A stretch of 12,471 nt of DNA from positions 1-12,471 of the forward strand of contig DQYM01000178.1 of NCBI GenBank assembly GCA_011040545.1, in the 5' to 3' direction. Below are positions 2,765-12,471 of the stretch, piece by piece. The notes below the pieces were generated by a model. That model made no database searches and had not been told where the DNA came from. It saw only the letters and a list, made by a program, of their open reading frames with translations. Position 1 is the first letter of the stretch, and each line of letters starts with the position of its first letter. This DNA comes from Candidatus Bathyarchaeota archaeon. Lineage in GTDB: Archaea; Thermoproteota; Bathyarchaeia; EX4484-135. The position numbers were made by a program, and so were the translations under genes.

Positions 2765-3445
2765 ATGGCGGTGGGGCTGGCGATGGGCATGGGTGGTGAG
2801 GAAATCATAGAGGGCCTTAGGAGGGCCGTGAGGGAGTACGACCCGAACATGGCTCGTGAGTATGCCAGGAAGGCAGCTGAGGCTGGCATAGACCCAGTGA
2901 GGGCACTTGAGGAAGGCCTAGCAAGTGCCCTAAGGGAGATCGGCGATAAGTTCGGGAGGGGCGAGATATTCCTAACGGAGCTGGTGGCTGCTGCTCAAGC
3001 TATGGAGGCTGGCGCTGAGGTCTTGAAGAAGAAGATACTTGAGATGGGCAGGGCTGAGTACGTAGGGCGCTTCCTCATAGGCACGGTTGAGGGCGATATC
3101 CATAGCCTGGGCAAGGGCATAGTAGCTGCCATGCTCATGGCTGCTGGCTTTGAGGTCATAGATCTAGGTGAGGATGTGCCTACTGAGGTCTTCGTGGAGA
3201 AGGTACGTGAGTTCAAGCCAGATATACTAGGGCTAAGCGCCCTCATGACCACTACCATGGCCAAGCAGAGGGAGATCATAGAGGCCCTGAAGGCAGCTGG
3301 CTTAAGGGACAAGGTAAAGGTAATGGTCGGTGGGGCACCAGTTACGGAGGAGTGGGCCAGGGAGATAGGTGCTGATGCCTGTGGCTTAGATGCAAATGAT
3401 GCTGTTAAGAAGGCCCTCCAGCTCGTGGGCAGGAAGGTGGATTGA
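2765..3445 (+). CDS. Corrinoid (cobalamin-binding) protein of a methyltransferase system, MtbC/MttC type
   Basis: Small methyl carrier: its Co(I) corrinoid accepts a methyl group from the substrate methyltransferase and hands it on. 226 residues as called. An N-terminal helical cap domain (about 10-92, with EEIIEGL and PVRALEEGLASALREIG) precedes a B12-binding Rossmann domain (about 102-226). The base-off/His-on motif is intact: DIHSLG (D111, H113, G116), then SAL (158-160) and the GG pair (189-190). Length and domain order match MtbC, MttC, MtaC and MtgC proteins; the sequence alone does not reveal the substrate. It is followed one base later by the MttB-family methyltransferase, the usual partner pairing. 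Start: ATG 2765 has GAGGT at a good distance, but the first eight residues are not family-like, and ATG 2783 or 2789 remain possible. Confidence 0.95.
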   Translation: MAVGLAMGMGGEEIIEGLRRAVREYDPNMAREYARKAAEAGIDPVRALEEGLASALREIGDKFGRGEIFLTELVAAAQAMEAGAEVLKKKILEMGRAEYVGRFLIGTVEGDIHSLGKGIVAAMLMAAGFEVIDLGEDVPTEVFVEKVREFKPDILGLSALMTTTMAKQREIIEALKAAGLRDKVKVMVGGAPVTEEWAREIGADACGLDANDAVKKALQLVGRKVD

Positions 3446-3446
3446 G

Positions 3447-4910
3447 ATGTGCCCCTTCCCAGGACGAAGAATGCTGCAGCTCCTCAGCAGGGACGACATG
3501 GAGGCCATACACCTAGCAGCCATCCAGCTCCTTGAGGAGAAGGGCGTTATAGTGAAGAACGAAGAGGCCTTTCGTGTCCTTAAGGAAGCTGGCTGTGATG
3601 TAGATGAGGCTAGGAAGGTAGCTAGGATACCTGAGCACCTCGTTAAGGAGTGCCTATCTAAGGCCCCATCCGTCATAAGGCTGTACAGCAGGGATGGGAA
3701 GCACGATGTCATAGTAGGTAAGGACAACGTGATATTCAACCCAGGCTCAACGGCCCTCTACATCCTTGATCGCAAGACGGGTGAGATAAGGGAGCCGACC
3801 ACCAAGGACTTCGTGGAGTTCGTAAGGCTAACGGATGCCCTAGAGTACATACAGGCCCAGAGCACGGCTATGATACCTGCCGATGTAGATAAGCGCATAA
3901 CTGACCTGTACAGGCTCTACATAGTGCTGAAGAACTCTACCAAGCCGATAATAACAGGTGCCTTTACGAAGGAGGGCCTACATGATATGGTTAAGATGCT
4001 TGAGATAGTAGCAGGTGCTAGGGCTGGCGATAAGCCCATGGCCATCTTTGATGTCTGCCCATCTGCACCGCTGATGTGGAGCGATATAACGTGCCAGAAC
4101 CTAGTTGATTGCGCTAAGTACAAGATACCAGCCGAGATAGTCTCCATGCCACAGATAGGTGCTACTGGCCCCATAACGCTTGCTGGCAGCATAGCCCAGC
4201 TGAACGCAGAGGAGCTAAGTGCAATCGTCATATCACAGCTCGTTAACCCAGGTGCACCAATAATATACGGTGGCTCACCAACCACATTTGATATGCGCTA
4301 TGCTACCCCTAGGCTTGGGGCTATAGAAACCATCATGCTCTGCTGCGCCTACGCTCAGATGAGCAAGTTCTACGGCCTACCTAGCCATGCCTACCTAGGC
4401 CTAAGCGATTCAAAGGCCCTTGATGCGCAAGCTGGCCTTGAGAGCACTATGGGCATAATACTAGGTGCTATGGCTGGCGTGAACGTCATATCTGGGCCTG
4501 GCATGCTGGTCTCGGAGAGCTGCCAATCCTTTGAGAAGCTCGTCATAGACAACGAGGTTTGTGGCATGGCCCTTAGGCTTGTGGAGGGCATAGAGGTCAA
4601 TGCCGATACGCTAGCTATTGATGTCATGAGGAAGGTATGCCCAGGTGGCCACTACCTAGCTGAGAAGCACACTAGGGAGTGGCTGAGGAAGGAGGTATTC
4701 ATGCCATCACCTGTCATAGATAGGCTAAGCCTAGATGGCTGGCGTAGGGCTGGTGCCAAGGACATAATAGCTAGGGCTAGGGAGAGGGTGGATGAGATCC
4801 TAGCTACGCATGAGCCAGAGCCACTACCGCCAGATGTAGAAGAAGGCCTAAGGGAAGTGCTAAGGACCGTCATGGAGCGATATGGCATAAAGGAAGCGCC
4901 TATCCTCTAA
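3447..4910 (+). CDS. MttB-superfamily corrinoid methyltransferase without pyrrolysine (MtgB-like)
   Basis: Transfers a methyl group from a methylated amine, probably a quaternary amine, to the neighbouring corrinoid protein. 487 residues, close to the roughly 495 of MttB. Family blocks seen: YGGSPTTFDMRYATPR (274-289), GLSDSKALDAQAGLES (318-333), GAMAGVNVISGPGML (340-354) and HYLAEKHTREWLRKE (402-416). The frame contains no internal TAG, so unlike methanogen trimethylamine methyltransferase MttB it does not encode pyrrolysine. By length, the pyrrolysine position would fall around 315-335. Characterised non-pyrrolysine relatives use glycine betaine, proline betaine, carnitine or gamma-butyrobetaine, so one of these or another N-methylated compound is likely; the true substrate is unknown. 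Start: ATG 3447 lies one base after the corrinoid gene stop, with GGAAGGTGG just upstream. The ATG at 3390 lies inside the upstream gene and adds a tail unlike the family. Confidence 0.93.
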   Translation: MCPFPGRRMLQLLSRDDMEAIHLAAIQLLEEKGVIVKNEEAFRVLKEAGCDVDEARKVARIPEHLVKECLSKAPSVIRLYSRDGKHDVIVGKDNVIFNPGSTALYILDRKTGEIREPTTKDFVEFVRLTDALEYIQAQSTAMIPADVDKRITDLYRLYIVLKNSTKPIITGAFTKEGLHDMVKMLEIVAGARAGDKPMAIFDVCPSAPLMWSDITCQNLVDCAKYKIPAEIVSMPQIGATGPITLAGSIAQLNAEELSAIVISQLVNPGAPIIYGGSPTTFDMRYATPRLGAIETIMLCCAYAQMSKFYGLPSHAYLGLSDSKALDAQAGLESTMGIILGAMAGVNVISGPGMLVSESCQSFEKLVIDNEVCGMALRLVEGIEVNADTLAIDVMRKVCPGGHYLAEKHTREWLRKEVFMPSPVIDRLSLDGWRRAGAKDIIARARERVDEILATHEPEPLPPDVEEGLREVLRTVMERYGIKEAPIL

Positions 4911-4922
4911 ACCCCAATTTTT
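4911..4922 (+). terminator. short T-rich junction between convergent genes
   Basis: The methyltransferase stop (TAA, 4908-4910) and the opposing livF stop (4921-4923) are separated by ten bases. The plus strand reads AATTTTTAT here, a minimal T-run that could stop plus-strand transcription. There is no hairpin. Confidence 0.3.
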
Positions 4923-5637
4923 ATAGCCCCGTTTCTATGCCAAGGTAGAGCCTACTTAGCCTCGGGTGGTTTAGGAGCTCCTCAGGTGTTCCTTCAAAGT
5001 TCACACGGCCATCTACGAGCAGGTAGGCCCTATCGCCAATTTCAAGGGCCTTCCTTGCGCTCTGCTCAACAAGTATTATGGCTATGCCAAGCTCATCTCT
5101 TAGCCCTACTATGGTGTTCAGTATCTCCCTGGCTATCCTAGGCGCTAGATCTGTAGTTGGCTCATCAAACATCATGAGCTTTGGCTTCCTAAGCAGGGAC
5201 ATGGCTATGGCCAGCGTACGCCTCTCACCACCGCTGAGGGTCCTAGCCCTCTTATCTATGAGTGGCTTTAAGATCGGGAACATGCTTACTACCTCCTCAA
5301 TCCTATCCTCTACCTCTTCCTTCTTGAGCGAGTACGATGCCATTATCAAGTTCTCACGAACAGTTAGGTTCGTAAATACATTCTCTGTCTGTGGCAAGTA
5401 GGCTATGCCCTTCTTAGCTATCATGTGGGGTGGGTACTTTGTTAGCTCTTCTCCATCAAACCTTATGCTACCTGAGTATATGGTCGTTAAGCCAAATATG
5501 CTCTTAAGGAGCGTTGACTTGCCACTCCCATTTGGGCCAACTATGACCGTTATCTCCTTATCCCTTGCAACCATGTTCACATCGTAGAGGACGCTGAACT
5601 TCCCATAGCCAGCGTTCAGGTCCTCTACGACCAGCAT
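4921..5637 (-). CDS. livF: Branched-chain-amino-acid-type ABC transporter ATPase, LivF-like
   Basis: One of the two cytoplasmic nucleotide-binding subunits of a HAAT-family importer. 238 residues, the standard LivF length. Walker A GPNGSGKST (34-42), Q-loop Gln83 in LPQTENVF, signature LSGGERR (134-140), Walker B LMMFDEP (154-160). The position of the switch His carries VEQ (190-192), as is usual in LivF. The D-loop region reads TTDLAP. It follows livG on the same strand after a 30-base gap, with GAGGGGAT as ribosome binding site before the ATG at 5637, so livG-livF are one transcription unit. Given the context, the imported compound may be the methyl donor of the methyltransferase system rather than leucine; that is inference. 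Confidence 0.93.
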   Translation of the reverse strand: MLVVEDLNAGYGKFSVLYDVNMVARDKEITVIVGPNGSGKSTLLKSIFGLTTIYSGSIRFDGEELTKYPPHMIAKKGIAYLPQTENVFTNLTVRENLIMASYSLKKEEVEDRIEEVVSMFPILKPLIDKRARTLSGGERRTLAIAMSLLRKPKLMMFDEPTTDLAPRIAREILNTIVGLRDELGIAIILVEQSARKALEIGDRAYLLVDGRVNFEGTPEELLNHPRLSRLYLGIETGL

Positions 5638-5667
5638 GCTATCCCCTCAGGCCGTGGGCGTGCGAGC

Positions 5668-6426
5668 TTATAAGTAGGCCTCAACCACCCTTGGATCATC
5701 TATGACCTCCTCAGGTCGCCCCTCGGTAAGCAGGTGCCCCCTATCAAGCACGTAGACGTAATCAACGTACTTCAGGGCTATTTCAAGCCTATGCTCAATT
5801 ATGAAGAAGGTAACGTTAAGCTCCTTCCTGAGCTTAAGCAAGCGTGAGAATATCTCGTGGGCTAGCACGGGGTTAACGCCAGATATAGGCTCATCCATCA
5901 TCACCATTTTTGCATCTGTCATAAGGGCTCTACCGATTTCAAGGAGCTTCATCTGGCCACCGCTTAGGCCATAGGATGGGTGATCCCATAGGTGATCTAG
6001 CTTAAGCAGCTCTAGCAGCTTAAAGGCCTTCTCAACGAGCTCTTCCTCCTTCTTAAGCCAGGCCCTCCTAAATGGGGCCTTCAGTATGCCCTCACCAGGG
6101 TTATCCCTAGCAGCTACTAGGAGGTTCTCAAGGACCGTTAGCTTAACGAAGGGGAGCGGTATCTGGAACGTCTTAACCAGGCCAAGCTTGTAGATCTCAT
6201 GTGGTTTTAGGCCAGTTATATCGTGGCCATCAAAGACTACCGTACCTGCATCTGGCTTGTACATGCCACAGACGACCCTCAAGAACGTGGTCTTCCCAGC
6301 TCCATTGGGCCCCATCATGAGCGTAACTGAGCCCCTCTCAACATCTATGCTTACGTTATCTAGTGCCACCAGGCCCCCGAATGCCTTCCTGAGCCCCTCA
6401 GTATGCAGTATCACATCCCCTGCCAT
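5668..6426 (-). CDS. livG: Branched-chain-amino-acid-type ABC transporter ATPase, LivG-like
   Basis: Second nucleotide-binding subunit of the importer. 252 residues from the ATG at 6426. Walker A GPNGAGKTT (39-47), Q-loop Gln88 in KTFQIPLPF, LivG-type insertion before the signature LSGGQMK (154-160), Walker B MVMMDEP (174-180), D-loop ISGVNP and switch His212 in IIEHRL. Start: AGGTGGTG (6440-6433) sits just upstream of ATG 6426. The longer open frame to 6543 runs into the end of livK and has no homology-like sequence, so it was rejected. Its own TATA box and an inverted repeat lie in the 47 bases after the livK stop, so it may be expressed both from that promoter and by read-through from livK. 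Confidence 0.93.
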   Translation of the reverse strand: MAGDVILHTEGLRKAFGGLVALDNVSIDVERGSVTLMMGPNGAGKTTFLRVVCGMYKPDAGTVVFDGHDITGLKPHEIYKLGLVKTFQIPLPFVKLTVLENLLVAARDNPGEGILKAPFRRAWLKKEEELVEKAFKLLELLKLDHLWDHPSYGLSGGQMKLLEIGRALMTDAKMVMMDEPISGVNPVLAHEIFSRLLKLRKELNVTFFIIEHRLEIALKYVDYVYVLDRGHLLTEGRPEEVIDDPRVVEAYL

Positions 6427-6435
6427 TCCACGCAC

Positions 6436-6457
6436 CACCTCAAAAAATAATGAGGTG
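6436..6457 (-). repeat. perfect 7-bp inverted repeat covering the livG leader
   Basis: CACCTCA (6436-6442) and TGAGGTG (6451-6457) flank an A/T-only 8-base loop on the plus strand. On the livG strand the second arm contains most of the Shine-Dalgarno, and the element lies between the TATA box and the start codon. As DNA it would be an operator-like dyad at the transcription start. In a read-through livK-livG RNA it would be a hairpin hiding the ribosome binding site, and its T-run could act as a livK terminator. Confidence 0.55.
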
Positions 6458-6458
6458 T

Positions 6459-6467
6459 TATATAAAG
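6459..6467 (-). promoter_or_regulatory. TATA box for livG-livF
   Basis: Minus strand reads CTTTATATAA (about 6468-6459), a near-consensus archaeal TATA box. A start about 25 bases downstream falls near 6436, about ten bases before the livG ATG. This would give a very short leader that holds only the Shine-Dalgarno. Confidence 0.55.
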
Positions 6468-6473
6468 GGCCCC

Positions 6474-7742
6474 TTACTCGTAGATAGGCGTGGTCCAGAT
6501 TATGGTATCCGTAGCATAGACCCACTTGCCCACGAACTCCCACTCATAGGTTTCTGGTGAGGTCTCTACGATAGCACAGAGGTCGTAGTCCGAGGCCTCC
6601 TTATCGCCAGCTGGGTTCATCTTCATCCAGCCAGTAGCACCAAAGTAGTTCTCAGCTATCTTGGGTAGCACCTCCTTTACCTTATCTGGATCGTAGGCAC
6701 CTACGTGCATTATGCTGTGGACTATAAGCCAAACGGCATCGTACAGTGGGTAGGCATAGGCATCTGGCTCCTCACCGACCTCATGGTATATGTAGCTTCT
6801 AACGTGCTCAAACTTCGGGGACTTAGTTGGGGCGAAGACCGTGCAGACCATGCCAGTATCCAGCACGAAGTCCACGACAGCGGGGTCTAGGAGCTCGGTG
6901 CACATGACGAAGCCATCACAGCCAAACCACTTCACCTGCCTAAGGGCATCGTAGTCCTTTGCTGACTGGACTATGGTAGCTATCTCACCAAAGCTTATGG
7001 CTAGCACGCCTACTTTCTCAGCCCCGTAGGCTGAGATAGCAGCACTTACCTGGTCGTTCAGCGTGCTGACCTCTAGGCTATAATCTGGCTTCTCAGTGTA
7101 GGGTATAGTGGCATAGACTGTCCCGCCAAATGCATCGCTAACAGCATCCTTTAGGCCCCTGCCCCAATCATCATCCCTGTAGAGGATGATCAGCTGGTCA
7201 ACACCAACGTCCTCGATCATGCTAGCTATGGCTGGCCCCTGGGCAGCATCATTTGGACAGGCCCTGAATACGAAGTCGCCTGGCACGGCAAGGCTTATGG
7301 CCGTTGAGGCATGGGAGATGACCAGCAGGTGGTTTGAATCACAGTACTCCTTTATGGCGCTTAGCTCAGCACTTGACGTAGGGCCAACGAAGAATAGCAC
7401 GCCATCAGCGTGTAGGGCCTTTACCTTATCTAGGCAGACGCTTGGGTTGCTCTCTATATCTTCAATAACGATGTCTATGGTGAAGCCAGCACCTATGTCC
7501 TCTAGCCACGAGTTTATATCGCTCTCGGCTAGCTCAAGGGCAGCCCTATACATTGGCCCCCAAGGGGCCAGGTCGCCCGTTAGCTCAATTAAGCCACCTA
7601 TTTTTAGCGTCCCAGAGAGGCCAGGGGCGCCAGGGGCACCAGGCCCTGGAGCCATGATGGTGCCAATGCCATAGCCAATGCCTATGCCAGCTAGGAGGCA
7701 GATGATCGCTATAATGATAGCAACGGCACCCTTAACCTCCAT
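6474..7742 (-). CDS. livK: Membrane-anchored substrate-binding protein of a Liv-type ABC importer, LivK-like
   Basis: Captures the ligand outside the cell for the LivHMGF importer. 422 residues from ATG 7742. Residues about 6-28 form one hydrophobic segment (VAIIIAIICLLAGIGIG) and act as an anchor; the Cys is not in a clear lipobox. A low-complexity APGPGAPGAPG linker (31-41) follows, then a type I periplasmic-binding fold starting LKIGGLIELTGDLAPWG. GPTSSAE (120-126) and SHASTAIS (143-150) match the positions where family members hold ligand carboxyl and amino groups, so an amino-acid-like or betaine-like ligand is plausible. Start: GGTGA lies just before ATG 7742. A TTG at 7775 would extend the frame by 11 residues into the TATA box and is unlikely. 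The divergent permease genes lie on the other strand, so the importer is split into two facing units. Confidence 0.92.
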   Translation of the reverse strand: MEVKGAVAIIIAIICLLAGIGIGYGIGTIMAPGPGAPGAPGLSGTLKIGGLIELTGDLAPWGPMYRAALELAESDINSWLEDIGAGFTIDIVIEDIESNPSVCLDKVKALHADGVLFFVGPTSSAELSAIKEYCDSNHLLVISHASTAISLAVPGDFVFRACPNDAAQGPAIASMIEDVGVDQLIILYRDDDWGRGLKDAVSDAFGGTVYATIPYTEKPDYSLEVSTLNDQVSAAISAYGAEKVGVLAISFGEIATIVQSAKDYDALRQVKWFGCDGFVMCTELLDPAVVDFVLDTGMVCTVFAPTKSPKFEHVRSYIYHEVGEEPDAYAYPLYDAVWLIVHSIMHVGAYDPDKVKEVLPKIAENYFGATGWMKMNPAGDKEASDYDLCAIVETSPETYEWEFVGKWVYATDTIIWTTPIYE

Positions 7743-7775
7743 GCCCTTCACCAGGTTGGGCAGGGGAATGCCCAA

Positions 7776-7786
7776 TTATTTAAAGC
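7776..7786 (-). promoter_or_regulatory. TATA box for livK
   Basis: Minus strand reads GCTTTAAATAA (7786-7776). A start about 25 bases on falls near 7755, leaving a short leader with GGTGA before the ATG at 7742. This spacing is what favours ATG 7742 over the upstream TTG. Confidence 0.55.
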
Positions 7787-7907
7787 TTTCTAGAAGGCGC
7801 TGTTGCTGGGCTCCTAAGATGCACTGACCACCTTATTACCTATGGACATGGATGATCTACTGGAGATGGGCTAGACGGGCCTTAAGCAGCTCGAGGAGCC
7901 ATGAACA

Positions 7908-7917
7908 CTTAAATAGG
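7908..7917 (+). promoter_or_regulatory. TATA box for the livH-livM-RACo unit
   Basis: CTTAAATAGG at 7908-7917 is TATA-like, about 36 bases before the livH ATG. A start near 7938 would give a leader of about ten bases. The 7776-7948 region therefore looks like a divergent promoter region serving livK on one side and livH on the other. Nothing coding was found in it. Confidence 0.5.
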
Positions 7918-7948
7918 CTGTTCTTTTCCCACGGGGCTGGGGAAGGCC

Positions 7949-8920
7949 ATGTGGATGCTGCTGAGAGATGCCATCACCTACGCCTGTATGCTCATACTAC
8001 TTAGCACAGGCCTAACGCTTACGTACATCACAACCAAGGTACCTAACTTTGCTCATGGTGAGATAGCCGTGATAGGGCTCTTCGTGGCCTTCACGTTCCT
8101 TAAGATATTTGGCCTCAACCCCTACCTAGCCATGCCAGCTGCCTTCGCTCTAAGCGCCCTCACTGCCCTAGGCCTCTACAAGCTGGTGCTAAAGCCACTA
8201 ATGAAGAGGGGGGCCACGCTTGACCACCTCATGATAGCTACACTTGGCTACGACATACTCATCTTCGCCATCCTAAATGTATACGCTGATGTCCTAACGA
8301 AGGTATACAAGGTGAAGACAAGGGGCTTCATGCCATTCAGACCCTATGACTTCACGGTGCTGGATCAGCCAGGCATATTCCTAGTATCCGTGGTGGCAGT
8401 TGTCGTGCTAATGGTAACCCTCCACCTACTCCTCACCAGGACGAGGTTTGGCATAGCCATGAGGGCAACAATAGAGAACCCGAACTTAGCTAGCGTCTGT
8501 GGCGTGAACACCGAGCTCGTTTACACGATATCCTGGATCCTAGCTGGTGGCCTGGCTGGGATAGCTGGCGTCCTCCTGCCCTTCTACTTCAGGGGTAGCC
8601 CCTGCCTTGGCTTCGTGCTTATAGTACCCGTCTTCACCGCCAGCATAGTCGGTGGCTTCTACAGCATATATGGAGCCATGCTAGGTGGTGCCATAGCTGG
8701 CCTATCGGAGTACTTAATAACATATGCTATTGCATCAGCCGTTGGCCCCTGGTTCCTAAGCTACAGGGTAGCCGTTCCACTGATAATGCTAGCCATAACG
8801 CTCTTAATAGCTCCTGAGGGCCTGACTGGCATTAACTGGCGGAGGGCAGGTAGCCTGCTCAAGCAGAAGCTATCTGGCCTTTGGCTCCGCCTTGCCTCCC
8901 TAGGGGGCGTGAAGGCATGA
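7949..8920 (+). CDS. livH: Branched-chain-amino-acid-type ABC transporter permease, LivH-like
   Basis: Membrane subunit of the importer. 323 residues, slightly longer than typical LivH, with about eight hydrophobic segments. Family marks: the VPNFAHGEIAVIG block (31-43) after the first segment, RTRFGIAMRATIENPNLASVCGVN in the cytoplasmic loop that contacts the ATPase, and the glycine-rich GGFYSIYGAMLGGAIAGL stretch. The C-terminus ends in a basic, amphipathic tail (WRRAGSLLKQKLSGLWLRLASL). Start: ATG 7949 follows GGGGAAGG; an ATG at 7955 is a possible alternative. The gene opens the plus-strand unit and overlaps livM by four bases (ATGA), which implies coupled translation. Confidence 0.92.
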   Translation: MWMLLRDAITYACMLILLSTGLTLTYITTKVPNFAHGEIAVIGLFVAFTFLKIFGLNPYLAMPAAFALSALTALGLYKLVLKPLMKRGATLDHLMIATLGYDILIFAILNVYADVLTKVYKVKTRGFMPFRPYDFTVLDQPGIFLVSVVAVVVLMVTLHLLLTRTRFGIAMRATIENPNLASVCGVNTELVYTISWILAGGLAGIAGVLLPFYFRGSPCLGFVLIVPVFTASIVGGFYSIYGAMLGGAIAGLSEYLITYAIASAVGPWFLSYRVAVPLIMLAITLLIAPEGLTGINWRRAGSLLKQKLSGLWLRLASLGGVKA

Positions 8921-10002
8921 TACTCTTACCACCCCTCCTGCTATTCATAATGGATACGATAGCCATGATAGCTATCTACCTCATAACAACTCTCAGCCTG
9001 AACATCCAGTACGGCTACACTGGCATAGCCGACTTCGGCAAGTCAGCTGGTGTAGCCGTTGGTGCCTACGTGGTGGGTGCCATACCAGGTAGGGTGCTCA
9101 TGGCCTTTCTGGCCATAGAGGGCGATTACATCAAGGATAACACGCCCATAGTTAGTGCTATAAACTCGGTCCTAAGTGTTGATGTAGCCCTGGCCATAGG
9201 GACGCTCATGCTTGGCCTAGCGCTAGCAGCTGGCCTTGGTGCCCTATTTGGCTACGTGGCCTCGTACCCTGTCGCTAGGCTTAAAGGTGAGTACCTAGCC
9301 ATATTCATGTTGGCCATATCTGAGGCCATGCGTTATATTTTCAACTACTACACGCCCGTCGTAGGTGGCCCCTACGGCGTTACCGTACCAGATCCATTTA
9401 AGTTCATTACCAGCGCCTACGGTGGCCAGCTAAGGCTCATCTTTGCATCAGTGGTCATACTAATTATATCAATAGGCATGTTCTACTACGCAGAGCGCCT
9501 TGCTAGATCCCCACTTGGCCGAACATTAAGGGCCATAAGGGATTGTGATGTAGCAGCCGAGGTCCTCGGTAAGGATGTAGCTAGCTACAGGATGAAGATA
9601 ATGGTGCTTAGCTCTGCTATGGCTGCTATAGCAGGTGCCCTCTACGCTTTCTACACGCTTTACGTAGCTGCCATAGCCTACGATAGGGTAACGTGGACCT
9701 TCTGGCCCTGGACTATACTCATACTAGGTGGCATGGCCAATAACGTAGGCGTGGTCATCGGTACCATCCTGTTCGTAGTTGTAACAAGGCTCATAATAAT
9801 ATTCAAGCGCTCACTTGAGCCCATACTGCCATTTGATGTAATCTGGCTTGAATATATACTATTCGGCCTCATGCTCATCCTCGTGCTGATGTTCAGGCCA
9901 GAGGGCATACTGCCTGAGAAGCCAACTAAGACCATAGAGTTTGAGAAGATCAAGGAGCGTAGGGCCAGAAAGGGAAGAAGTCATGGTAAGGCTAGCAGTT
10001 GA
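8917..10002 (+). CDS. livM: Branched-chain-amino-acid-type ABC transporter permease, LivM-like
   Basis: Second membrane subunit. 361 residues from ATG 8917, whose ATGA overlaps the livH stop; an upstream TTG at 8881 was rejected because it lies inside livH. Family marks: LNIQYGYTGIADFGKSAGVAVGAY (28-51), where LivM usually has a Gly-His pair and this protein has Gly-Lys; SPLGRTLRAIRDCDVAAEVLG in the ATPase-contact loop; and the RPEGI ending typical of the family. A long polar loop (about 65-85) and a basic C-terminal tail rich in Lys, Arg and Glu follow the last membrane segment. The last 20 bases overlap the start of the RACo gene, so transporter and corrinoid activator are in one transcript. 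Confidence 0.92.
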   Translation: MILLPPLLLFIMDTIAMIAIYLITTLSLNIQYGYTGIADFGKSAGVAVGAYVVGAIPGRVLMAFLAIEGDYIKDNTPIVSAINSVLSVDVALAIGTLMLGLALAAGLGALFGYVASYPVARLKGEYLAIFMLAISEAMRYIFNYYTPVVGGPYGVTVPDPFKFITSAYGGQLRLIFASVVILIISIGMFYYAERLARSPLGRTLRAIRDCDVAAEVLGKDVASYRMKIMVLSSAMAAIAGALYAFYTLYVAAIAYDRVTWTFWPWTILILGGMANNVGVVIGTILFVVVTRLIIIFKRSLEPILPFDVIWLEYILFGLMLILVLMFRPEGILPEKPTKTIEFEKIKERRARKGRSHGKASS

Positions 10003-11770
10003 GGTCAGGCGAGGCGATAGGCTGCTAGAGAAGCTAGCCAACCTAGGCCATGTATTTCCCTCCAACTGTGGTGGCAGGGGTCTATGCGGTAGATGTAGGA
10101 TCCTAGTGCTAGAAGGTCGTGAGCTCCTCTCTAGGCCTACTAAGCAGGAGCTAGCCTTGCTCTCAAGGGAAGAGCTAAGCGGTGGCTGGAGGCTTGCCTG
10201 CCAGGCCATAGCACTATCAAGTGGCTCGCTAGTGCTTGAGCTCCCCTACCTAACTTATAGGCTAGTCGTAGAAGGCGTGGAGGGGCCCGTAGAGCTCTCA
10301 CCTGCTGTAGTAGGACGGCAGCTAGTAATTGAGAAGCCTAGCCTAGCCGACCTAAGGGCTGATGAAGAGAGGATCTTAAGCAGCTTGGGGGCTAACAGCA
10401 TGGATATTGAATTACTCAGGGAGCTACCTAGCTTGCTAAGGCACGGGCCTAGTAGGGCTGAGGCCATCGTGAGGGGAGGGGAGGTACTAGATATTAGGCC
10501 ACCTGGAAGGCCACTGCTTGGCATGGCCATAGATATAGGGACAACGAAGATAGCTGCCTATCTAGTTGACCTGAGGGTGGGAAAGCTGCTATCTACCAGC
10601 AGTGATATAAATCCGCAAGTTGCCTTTGGTGAAGATATAATGTCCCGTATAGCATTCTCTATGGAGGGGCCTGATAAGCTCATTAAGCTTTCAACAGTAC
10701 TTAGGGATGGCATAAACAAGCTCGTACGTGAGGCCTGTAGCTTAGCTGGGGCTTCACCTAACGATGTATACGAGCTCGTCTTAGTCGGTAACACCGTGAT
10801 GCACCACTCCCTCCTTGGCATATCCTTGAGGGGGCTTGGGCTAGCACCATATACGCCAGCTACTACTAGGCCACTCCAGGTTAAGGCCAGGGACCTTGGC
10901 CTTGAGGCTGGCAGGGGCGCTTATGCCTACTTGCCACCGCCCATAGCTGGCTTCGTAGGCTCGGATGCCCTTGCCGATCTAGTGGCCAGTGGCATGTACG
11001 AGCTAGGTGGCACCTGCATGTTGATAGATATAGGGACCAATACCGAGATATTGCTTAAGAGCGGGGATGCCTTCTGGGCCTGCTCCTGTGCCTCAGGGCC
11101 TGCCTTTGAGGGCTGGAGGATAAGCTGTGGGTCTAGGGCCGTGAGGGGAGCCATAGATAGCGTTAGGATTGAGCCAGGCACGTATGAAGTAGCCTACACG
11201 ACCATAGGGGGAGCTAAGCCCATAGGAATCTGTGGCTCAGGCCTCATAGATGCAGTAGCCGAGTTCTACCGTGCTGGCATCCTTGATGCCTCTGGCAGGA
11301 TGCGTGAGGTAGGCACCCCTAGGTTGAGGAGGAGACAGGGGGTCCTTGAGTTCGTATTAGCTTGGGCAAGCGAGGCTGGGGCAGGGCACGATATAGTGAT
11401 AACGCAGAAGGACATAAGAGAGATACAGCTTGCTAAGGCTGCTATAAGGGCTGGCTCCAGGGTCCTCATGGAGAAGGCTGGCGTAGGGCCTGAGGACATA
11501 GACATGTTGTTCATAGCAGGTGCCTTTGGCTCCTCGCTCAACCTAGCAAGTGCAATGGCCATAGGCATGTGCCCAAGCGTCCCCTTATCCCGTGTTAGGT
11601 TCCTTGGGAACTCAGCGGGGGCAGGTGCTAGAATGATGCTTAAGAACGTTGGGCTCAGGAGGAAAGCAGAGGAGCTAGCTAAACACATCAAGTTCGTTGA
11701 GCTAGCAGTTGAAAAAGAATTTAGGGAGGAGTTCCTAAGGGCACTCTCCTTTCCAAGCCTAGGTGCCTAG
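9983..11770 (+). CDS. RACo-type ATP-dependent reductive activator of corrinoid proteins (2Fe-2S ferredoxin domain plus ASKHA domain)
   Basis: Reactivates corrinoid proteins by using ATP to drive reduction of Co(II) to Co(I). 595 residues from ATG 9983. A plant-type [2Fe-2S] domain is at the N-terminus with Cys29, Cys35, Cys38 and Cys73 (C-x5-C-x2-C-x34-C). After a linker (about 90-178) comes an ASKHA-fold ATPase region: DIGTTK (184-189), LVGNTVMHH (267-275), DIGTNTE (349-355), CASGPAFEG (369-377), GICGSGLID (415-423), IAGAFGS (511-517) and GNSAGAGAR (542-550). The architecture matches RACo rather than methanogen RamA, which carries C-terminal [4Fe-4S] clusters instead. Start: ATG 9983 lies inside the end of livM; an upstream GTG/TTG-type extension to 9941 adds nothing family-like. 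It is cotranscribed with the permeases and faces mtrH. The likely client is the corrinoid protein encoded at 2765-3445. Confidence 0.93.
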   Translation: MVRLAVEVRRGDRLLEKLANLGHVFPSNCGGRGLCGRCRILVLEGRELLSRPTKQELALLSREELSGGWRLACQAIALSSGSLVLELPYLTYRLVVEGVEGPVELSPAVVGRQLVIEKPSLADLRADEERILSSLGANSMDIELLRELPSLLRHGPSRAEAIVRGGEVLDIRPPGRPLLGMAIDIGTTKIAAYLVDLRVGKLLSTSSDINPQVAFGEDIMSRIAFSMEGPDKLIKLSTVLRDGINKLVREACSLAGASPNDVYELVLVGNTVMHHSLLGISLRGLGLAPYTPATTRPLQVKARDLGLEAGRGAYAYLPPPIAGFVGSDALADLVASGMYELGGTCMLIDIGTNTEILLKSGDAFWACSCASGPAFEGWRISCGSRAVRGAIDSVRIEPGTYEVAYTTIGGAKPIGICGSGLIDAVAEFYRAGILDASGRMREVGTPRLRRRQGVLEFVLAWASEAGAGHDIVITQKDIREIQLAKAAIRAGSRVLMEKAGVGPEDIDMLFIAGAFGSSLNLASAMAIGMCPSVPLSRVRFLGNSAGAGARMMLKNVGLRRKAEELAKHIKFVELAVEKEFREEFLRALSFPSLGA

Positions 11771-11781
11771 GGCCTCTAGGC
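11765..11781. terminator. 6-bp inverted repeat across the RACo/mtrH convergent stops
   Basis: GCCTAG (11765-11770) and CTAGGC (11776-11781) flank a 5-base loop that is exactly the gap between the two genes. Both stop codons (TAG on each strand) lie in the arms. It could be a shared bidirectional terminator. There is no strong T-run on either side, so support is moderate. Confidence 0.35.
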
Positions 11782-12471
11782 TATCTTATACAATGGGTGA
11801 TCTTTACCTATCTTTATGCCCTCCTCCCTCAGCAGGAAGCCCAAGGCTGCATCTACCATTGCAACAGCTGGGAAGATGTACTTAGCTGCTTCAATTGGCC
11901 CGTAGAGTAGGAAGTCAGCACCAACAGCAGCAGCTAGCACGTTTGCACCAGCCATGCAGGGCTTAACAGCATCCTTCCCCATCTTGGTCTTCAGGCCACG
12001 CCAGGTATCTATGGCGTTGTGGGGGGAGCAACCAATAGGCCACTCTACTTCCTCCCTTAGCTTCAGCAGTGCCTTACAGGCCATGCCAAGGCTAGGTATA
12101 TCCATAACGCAAGTATCTATCAGTGGCTTCTCTATGCCATTTGCAAGTGCTACATCAAGTAGCTCCCTAACTGCCTTTACCCTACCAGCTGTGCTGAACT
12201 CCCTCATGTTAAGAGCTAGCAGGATGGCGCTCCTAAGGCCGATCTCCCTTATGCTCTCAATCTCCTCTCTTGCAAAGCCTGGTGAAAGCGAGTTGTAAAT
12301 GATCCTATCTAGTAGGCCAACCTCAGCAGCATGCTTTAGGCCAGCTAGCCTTACCTTGGCCGTTGTCCCATCTATCAATATGGGCCTATCCGTCCTATCG
12401 GCCACGAAGTCAAGGAACCTCACCATGGCCCTAGGGCTCGATGCTAGCACATCAACCATGCATGGGTTGCC
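11776..12471 (-). CDS. mtrH: MtrH-family methyltransferase (tetrahydropterin/corrinoid), 5' end beyond the window
   Basis: Moves a methyl group between a corrinoid protein and a tetrahydropterin (H4MPT or H4F). 231 residues are visible; the frame stays open to the window edge, where it reads GNPCMVDV, a conserved MtrH segment, so the ATG at 12459 is internal and about 60-80 residues are missing. Seen: IDGTTAKVRLAGLKHAAEVG, DRIIYNSLSPG, LLALNM, DTCVMDIPSLGMA, GCSPHNAIDTWRGL, and a C-terminal hydrophobic ADFLLYGPIEAA segment. In methanogens MtrH is a subunit of the Mtr complex, with its other subunits encoded alongside. None is visible here, as in MtgA-like stand-alone proteins that pair with MtgB and MtgC. 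It likely accepts methyl groups from the local corrinoid protein. Convergent with RACo, with a five-base gap. Confidence 0.92.
   Translation of the reverse strand, partial: GNPCMVDVLASSPRAMVRFLDFVADRTDRPILIDGTTAKVRLAGLKHAAEVGLLDRIIYNSLSPGFAREEIESIREIGLRSAILLALNMREFSTAGRVKAVRELLDVALANGIEKPLIDTCVMDIPSLGMACKALLKLREEVEWPIGCSPHNAIDTWRGLKTKMGKDAVKPCMAGANVLAAAVGADFLLYGPIEAAKYIFPAVAMVDAALGFLLREEGIKIGKDHPLYKIA

Follow-up and report, generated by a model that had tools for sequence, protein, structure and literature searches.

Archaeal gene clusters built around the MttB superfamily of methyltransferases have been reported from several lineages (statements on published systems, here and below, refer to the cited passages of each paper). 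Culexarchaeia carry clusters of mtrH, mttB, corrinoid-protein and activase genes (PMC9723716), and the Asgard archaea Atabeyarchaeia and Freyarchaeia carry MttB-MtbC-MtrH genes, with quaternary-amine methylotrophy proposed (PMC11291895); mttB has also been noted in Bathyarchaeia (PMC11264602). The importers reported beside MttB-superfamily genes include OpuD (PMC6855144) and an MFS transporter (PMC8604678), and the choline cluster of E. limosum holds an EamA-type transporter gene (PMC12155760). A loose parallel is offered by A. fulgidus, in which branched-chain importer genes rise on a methoxylated aromatic (PMC8359953). Here we describe a nine-gene block of Candidatus Bathyarchaeota archaeon (assembly GCA_011040545.1, contig DQYM01000178.1) that encodes an MttB homologue, a corrinoid protein, a corrinoid reductive activase (RACo), an MtrH-family methyltransferase and, embedded among them, a Liv-type importer. 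The block lies in a stretch of 12,471 nucleotides, hereafter the window, which is the entire contig C6 of a 1.06 Mb, 85.9% complete Bathyarchaeia genome (G000). The island is real and conserved, it probably serves import and demethylation, and its substrate is probably something other than glycine betaine. In what follows, G-numbers denote the genomes compared, L-numbers the fetched genome stretches (loci) and f-numbers the Bathyarchaeia families.

The block can probably be read as one unit that takes up a small methylated compound and demethylates it by way of a corrinoid, feeding a tetrahydropterin and CODH/ACS. LivFGHKM would import the methylated compound, and the MttB homologue would move its methyl group to the Co(I) of the corrinoid protein. 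By analogy with their families, RACo would re-reduce the corrinoid following accidental oxidation and MtrH would hand the methyl group to a tetrahydropterin, from which it would most likely enter acetyl-CoA via CODH/ACS. The evidence favours a compound other than glycine betaine, most likely a methylated amine or a methylated amino acid. From position 2765 the block runs as follows:

2765..3445, + strand: corrinoid (B12-binding) protein of the MttC/MtbC/MtgC type, 226 amino acids (PF02607 and PF02310, TIGR02370, DxHxxG)
3447..4910, + strand: MttB-superfamily methyltransferase without pyrrolysine, 487 amino acids (PF06253, Leu at the pyrrolysine site, clade and pocket)
4921..5637, - strand: LivF-type ATPase, 238 amino acids, tail-to-tail with MttB (PF00005; best NCBIfam match UrtE/LivF, below cut-offs)
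5668..6426, - strand: LivG-type ATPase, 252 amino acids (PF00005 and PF12399)
6474..7742, - strand: LivK-type substrate-binding protein, 422 amino acids (PF01094/PF13458; PDB relatives 3td9 and 3ipc; binding motif)
7743..7948, no strand: divergent promoter region between LivK and LivH (TATA-like boxes, alike by eye in a second species, G001)
7949..8920, + strand: LivH-type permease, 323 amino acids (PF02653)
8917..10002, + strand: LivM-type permease, 361 amino acids (PF02653; 4-base overlap with LivH)
9983..11770, + strand: RACo-type corrinoid reductive activase, 595 amino acids (PF14574, PF17651, PF17650 and PF00111; CxxxxxCxxC)
11776..12471, - strand: MtrH-family methyltransferase, 3' part (PF02007; continues in contig C55, about 303 amino acids when joined)

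All nine parts are open reading frames (ORFs), and MtrH alone is truncated, at the contig end. Starts were revised to 3447 (MttB), 6426 (LivG), 7742 (LivK), 8917 (LivM) and 9983 (RACo), all ATG and free of inner stops; the large overlaps among the raw ORFs arose because raw starts had been set upstream. A sequence-only reading of this DNA had listed an importer, an MttB homologue, a corrinoid protein, RACo and MtrH, and Pfam and NCBIfam domain matches bear out each of them. The importer comprises two ATPases, two PF02653 permeases and one ANF_receptor/Peripla_BP_6 binding protein. The MttB homologue matches PF06253/COG5598 at 365 bits (cut-off 25) over positions 29-491 of a 500-position profile. 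The corrinoid protein scores 229.4 bits against TIGR02370 (cut-off 215.3) and carries the cobalt-ligand motif DIHSLG (DxHxxG) at residues 111-116. RACo has the linker, middle and C-terminal domains of its family plus an N-terminal Fer2 (2Fe-2S) domain, with CxxxxxCxxC beginning at 43 of the 609-amino-acid ORF.

There is good support for the nine genes forming one functional unit. Once contigs are joined, G001, a second species of the genus, shows all nine in identical order and on identical strands. The joins rest on an exact 123-base overlap between C6 and C55, the latter supplying the 5' part of MtrH, and on an exact 104-base overlap within LivM between contigs C72 and C8 of G001. Identity between the species is 84% for MttB, 92% for the corrinoid protein, 81-88% for the Liv subunits, 65% for RACo and 79% for MtrH. 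Outside the block, no ORF of at least 100 amino acids matches between the two genomes at 1e-8; the shorter of the flanks compared span about 2.6 kb to the left and 5 kb to the right. The ratio of nonsynonymous to synonymous substitution rates (dN/dS) is 0.04-0.14 in all nine genes, indicating purifying selection, although these ratios are rough because dS is 0.9-2.2. MttB, LivH and RACo each match once in G000, the window LivH being its sole LivH-type match, and the two MtrH fragments found there are parts of one gene; the genome is incomplete, so 'single-copy' holds for its assembled part only. One base separates the stop of the corrinoid gene from the MttB start, and RACo, which shares 20 bases with LivM in G000, begins 10 bases past LivM in G001; the permeases and RACo probably share one transcript. 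On the left, the block is adjoined by 3-hydroxyacyl-CoA dehydrogenase and EF-1 alpha genes. At its right edge in G000, a tRNA-Ser gene stands upstream of MtrH (contig C55, L153:439-527); contig C8 of G001 has no such gene. Within the window itself, neither an Rfam nor a tRNA scan gave any match, and a bacterial-type promoter scan stayed at shuffle level, with 7 promoters against 8.9 expected.

A link between Liv and MttB genes also recurs beyond the genus. Of 256 Bathyarchaeia genomes, 50 have MttB relatives and 127 have LivH relatives, and co-location was assessed at 81 sites from 47 genomes, namely 80 stretches fetched around part of the MttB matches plus the window. The null model placed Liv genes randomly in each genome, with counts taken from the LivH query and at most 8 per genome. 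LivH or LivM lay within 6 kb of MttB at nine sites in seven families (f1 and f6 twice each; f3, f10, f16, f22 and f25) against 1.1 expected at single Liv density, and within 3 kb at six sites against 0.7 expected, the window's own LivH being 3.04 kb away. A stricter null with Liv density doubled, which supersedes the single-density estimate, still gave 9 observed against 2.1 expected (P = 0.0002), or 7 against 2.1 without the window genus (P = 0.004). Sites L072 and L114, where other Liv subunits lie at the contig edge, were left out of this count. Mapped on a tree of 92 MttB rows, the label 'Liv-linked' (12 rows, L072 and L114 included) requires 9 changes; the association has therefore arisen or been lost repeatedly. 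Conservation of the block in a second species, key parts found once in the source genome and this recurrence of Liv near MttB together sustain the earlier inference of a single pathway.

Among these loci, L071:5391-13145 (G009) encodes an MttB with all of the MtgB pocket residues (Tyr, Asn, Arg, Leu, His, Tyr), adjoining LivH-LivM-LivG-LivF. L071 is thus a better candidate than the window for a Liv-fed glycine betaine system, and Bathyarchaeia may pair Liv with MtgB at this locus rather than in the window. Plasmids were sampled through 12 of 195 matching MttB records, with flanks of 7 or 9 kb. No branched-chain importer was found by name in these 12, several ABC genes without a stated substrate possibly being of Liv type; glycine-betaine ABC genes neighbour MttB in two records and a BCCT gene in one. 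On a plasmid of the haloarchaeon Halomicrococcus gelatinilyticus (L137), an MttB-family gene is directly followed by the genes of an ABC importer, which encode its binding protein, a pair of permeases and an ATPase.

The MttB homologue itself does not use pyrrolysine, as the sequence-only reading held. The pyrrolysine position of Methanosarcina MttB (7xcl) is Leu338 in the window protein, which has no inner stop. The protein scores 475.6 bits against TIGR02369, under the cut-off of 525, and no PylS match over cut-off was found in G000. The Leu at the pyrrolysine site rules out a pyrrolysine-type trimethylamine methyltransferase (MttB proper). Elsewhere, PylS exceeds its cut-off in three of the eight Bathyarchaeia genomes searched (G026, G035 and G104; L149-L151); in G026 and G035, MttB ORFs also contain an in-frame TAG, that of G026 about 1.3 kb from PylS. 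These are likely pyrrolysine users. MtmB-family genes also occur near Bathyarchaeia MttB genes, in L067 (PF05369) with homologues in L072, L094 and L115, the L067 ORF being open across the whole profile without TAG.

The sequence-only reading had invoked the bacterial MtgABC model for glycine betaine, which the pocket does not support. Five betaine contacts of MtgB (Tyr94, Asn199, Arg309, His345 and Phe/Tyr353) are docking predictions (PMC6855144), and chain 9yce was taken as numbered one higher than these positions. The window protein keeps none of the five, having Ser for Tyr94, Cys for Asn199, His for Arg309, Ser for His345 and Glu for Phe353; the fourth borders a gap in the alignment and is Ser by one alignment and Gly by another. 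For comparison, 90 MttB ORFs of at least 420 amino acids were taken from the fetched loci, of which 29, including one Bacillota and one Dehalococcoidia sequence, share at least 43% identity with the window protein and are here called window-type. Their pocket is strongly conserved, with Ser and Cys in 29 of 29, His in 24 (Gln in 4, Gly in 1) and Glu in 27 (Val in 1, Asp in 1), and the pyrrolysine site holds Leu in 25, Glu in 2, Val in 1 and Ile in 1. Only one of the 61 other ORFs, L071_10239, keeps MtgB's Tyr, Asn, Arg and Leu together. On the 92-row tree the window clade comprises 30 rows (support 100), apart from a group of MtgB, 4yyc and L071_10239 (support 98); support is from the Shimodaira-Hasegawa-like approximate likelihood-ratio test (SH-aLRT) only, and several branches are long. 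Predicted structure models were too poor for use (predicted local distance difference test scores of 60.5 for LivK and 43.9 for MttB). By sequence comparison, the window MttB belongs to a distinct clade, shared with bacteria, with its own predicted Ser/Cys/His/Glu pocket (Ser120, Cys223, His333 and Glu376 when the 506-residue ORF is numbered). Glycine betaine is set aside as the best reading of the substrate, given the lost contacts and the separate clade, and the conserved pocket of this bacteria-shared clade predicts another donor.

Downstream carbon flow can be outlined from the partner genes. The truncated window MtrH scores 203.6 bits against PF02007 and 168.7 against TIGR01114, below the cut-off of 271.4. 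Its full-length G001 orthologue passes that cut-off at 285.3 bits, placing it in the MtrH family, and falls short of the MtgA equivalog NF047990 (249.4 of 550 bits). CdhC of CODH/ACS is present in G000 and in seven of the eight genomes searched. McrA was found in none of eight genomes searched, G000 included, and methanogenesis was rejected on this result. The F420-dependent reductase Mer had no match in G000 or G001; both genomes carry an MTHFR-family gene, a partial one in the case of G000. With CdhC and the MTHFR-family gene present and McrA and Mer not found, the likeliest sink is acetyl-CoA synthesis, fed by methyl-tetrahydropterin (tetrahydromethanopterin, H4MPT, or tetrahydrofolate, H4F). 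In family f22 (L038, L040, L042 and L043), UroD-family genes adjoin window-type MttB, and the MtaA/MtbA-like UroD-family protein of L042 is perhaps an alternative methyl acceptor enzyme.

The importer gives further clues to the substrate. Against NF011933, which bears on import of plain branched-chain amino acids (Leu/Ile/Val), it scores 46 of 477 bits; the binding motif described below is kept. It was compared with 20 stretches, two of which continue MttB loci; the other 18 were chosen by LivH similarity and are 18 of the 19 best LivH matches outside the genus, at 42-52% identity. LivK and LivH are divergent in all 15 Liv stretches that hold both, as in the window. The solved amino-acid-binding proteins 3td9 and 3ipc match the window LivK, which by eye retains a Ser, Ser-Thr, Glu motif common to most of 16 aligned rows; in LivJ, we take these residues to hold the alpha-carboxylate and the alpha-ammonium group. 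Parts of this motif are lost, again by eye, in the MttB-adjoining binding proteins of L071, L072, L103 and L110. An MttB-specific Liv subclade was considered and rejected: the window LivH and LivK group with rows not linked to MttB, in a test biased because those rows were picked by likeness to the window.

The neighbours of other MttB genes offer substrate clues as well. The Bacillota locus reads, over L034:5806-12203, Na+/H+ antiporter, lysine 2,3-aminomutase, window-type MttB and lysine-fermentation-type BKACE gene. The aminomutase gene (599 bits, cut-off 525) stops 84 bases short of the MttB ORF, and the BKACE gene downstream has the cleavage enzyme of lysine fermentation as its nearest match (305 bits, below the cut-off of 382). 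A dehydrogenase-BKACE pair occurs in the L039 and L062 clusters.

Several observations weigh against a single unit. By strand, the block is four transcription units, not one, and two species of one genus count as one evolutionary case, however well preserved. When L056, a site with LivM only, is dropped along with the window genus, co-location stands at 6 sites against 2.0 expected (P = 0.014). Within the window-type clade, LivH is found at 3 of 27 loci and LivM at 4 of 27, alongside corrinoid protein at 19, MtrH at 11 and RACo at 7 (the 27 leave aside L063, whose MttB is cut, and two bacterial loci; many contigs are short). None of the 18 stretches chosen by LivH similarity, four of them on contigs of only 3-5.5 kb, holds an MttB or corrinoid-protein ORF, and the window's Liv module is related to these ordinary Bathyarchaeia importers, whose binding protein looks to be of amino-acid type. 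The proposal of a dedicated Liv importer is weakened by this grouping and by the LivK motif, and the expected co-location in relatives, complete within the genus, is only patchy beyond it. The genes may be neighbours only, with Liv a general amino-acid importer, the methyltransferase's donor entering otherwise and the adjacency a frozen accident of the genus. In favour of this reading, the Liv layout and sequence match MttB-free Bathyarchaeia clusters, the LivH-type permease is the only one found in an incompletely assembled genome, and the majority of fetched window-type MttB loci lack Liv. The reading accords poorly with a sharply bounded block kept in two species, with a RACo gene that overlaps a permease gene and with Liv-MttB proximity above expectation in other families, and we regard it as unlikely, though to be taken seriously.

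If the block is one unit, as we favour, the identity of its donor can be weighed in turn. A bold, unproven option, to which we give only a small chance, is a methylated amino acid whose alpha-amino acid head is free, such as N-epsilon-trimethyl-lysine; with that head, a single substrate would suit both an amino-acid-type importer and a methyltransferase of quaternary-amine type. The alpha-amino-acid-type motif kept in LivK points this way, as does an MttB that has lost MtgB's predicted carboxylate contacts and carries a conserved Glu, and the lysine 2,3-aminomutase and BKACE genes flanking the L034 MttB fit too. Saccharopine-dehydrogenase-like genes stand at 7 of the 29 window-type loci, but also at 6 other MttB loci among the fetched stretches. 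BKACE had no match in G000 or G001, so that lysine step would be lacking in G000 as assembled, and the genome-wide association of BKACE with window-type MttB (13 of 26 genomes against 40 of 230 others, Fisher P = 0.0004) is confounded by kinship. Improbable, and the least probable of the readings weighed here, is a glycine betaine route in which an archaeal MtgABC system is served by a Liv-type betaine importer. The presence of a non-pyrrolysine MttB-superfamily member with a cognate corrinoid protein and an MtrH/MtgA-type partner would suit it, and the MtgB-like protein of L071, with contact residues kept, adjoins LivHMGF in another Bathyarchaeon. Against it stand the absence of all five predicted contacts from the window MttB, that protein's place in a separate 30-row clade and the amino-acid type of the LivK motif.

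Bathyarchaeia are abundant in anoxic sediment, and a compact island reaching from uptake to methyl transfer would make their diet testable with few purified proteins. A methylated-amino-acid island, if true, would extend corrinoid methylotrophy, and what is known of Bathyarchaeia, by a methyl donor of a new class.

The island shares much with described systems. As in the Culexarchaeia clusters, a non-pyrrolysine mttB accompanies mtrH, corrinoid-protein and activase genes in an organism with the Wood-Ljungdahl pathway and no methanogenesis markers, whereas no Liv importer is mentioned for those clusters in the passages cited (PMC9723716). Atabeyarchaeia and Freyarchaeia likewise have non-pyrrolysine MttB near MtrH and a corrinoid protein, and the term 'branched-chain' is absent from the main text of that paper (PMC11291895). 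The MtgABC systems of Desulfitobacterium and Methanolobus vulcani B1d also combine an MttB-superfamily enzyme with a corrinoid protein and an adjoining importer gene, but the window differs in pocket, clade and importer type (OpuD in B1d), and its MtrH orthologue falls below the MtgA cut-off (PMC6855144). A published bathyarchaeial 'MtgB' O-demethylase comes from the same class, and there too a corrinoid protein and methyltransferase 2 are proposed to feed H4MPT; its methyltransferase 1 (MT1) of about 300 amino acids reportedly has no homology with known MT1 and shares a name with, but is a different protein from, MtgB (PMC10989822). O-demethylation by that enzyme was rejected for the window, the protein families being different (PMC10989822). 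Methanosarcina MttB (7xcl) shares with the window protein its family and a Cys-Pro motif at the position of MtgB Asn199, whereas the window protein lacks pyrrolysine and scores below the TIGR02369 cut-off. No description of this pairing was found in the titles and abstract openings of papers listed by literature searches for Bathyarchaeia or Liv together with MttB-type enzymes. Archaeal clusters of MttB, corrinoid protein, activase and MtrH are known from earlier work; what is new is the Liv importer embedded among such genes, together with the distinct clade of MttB.

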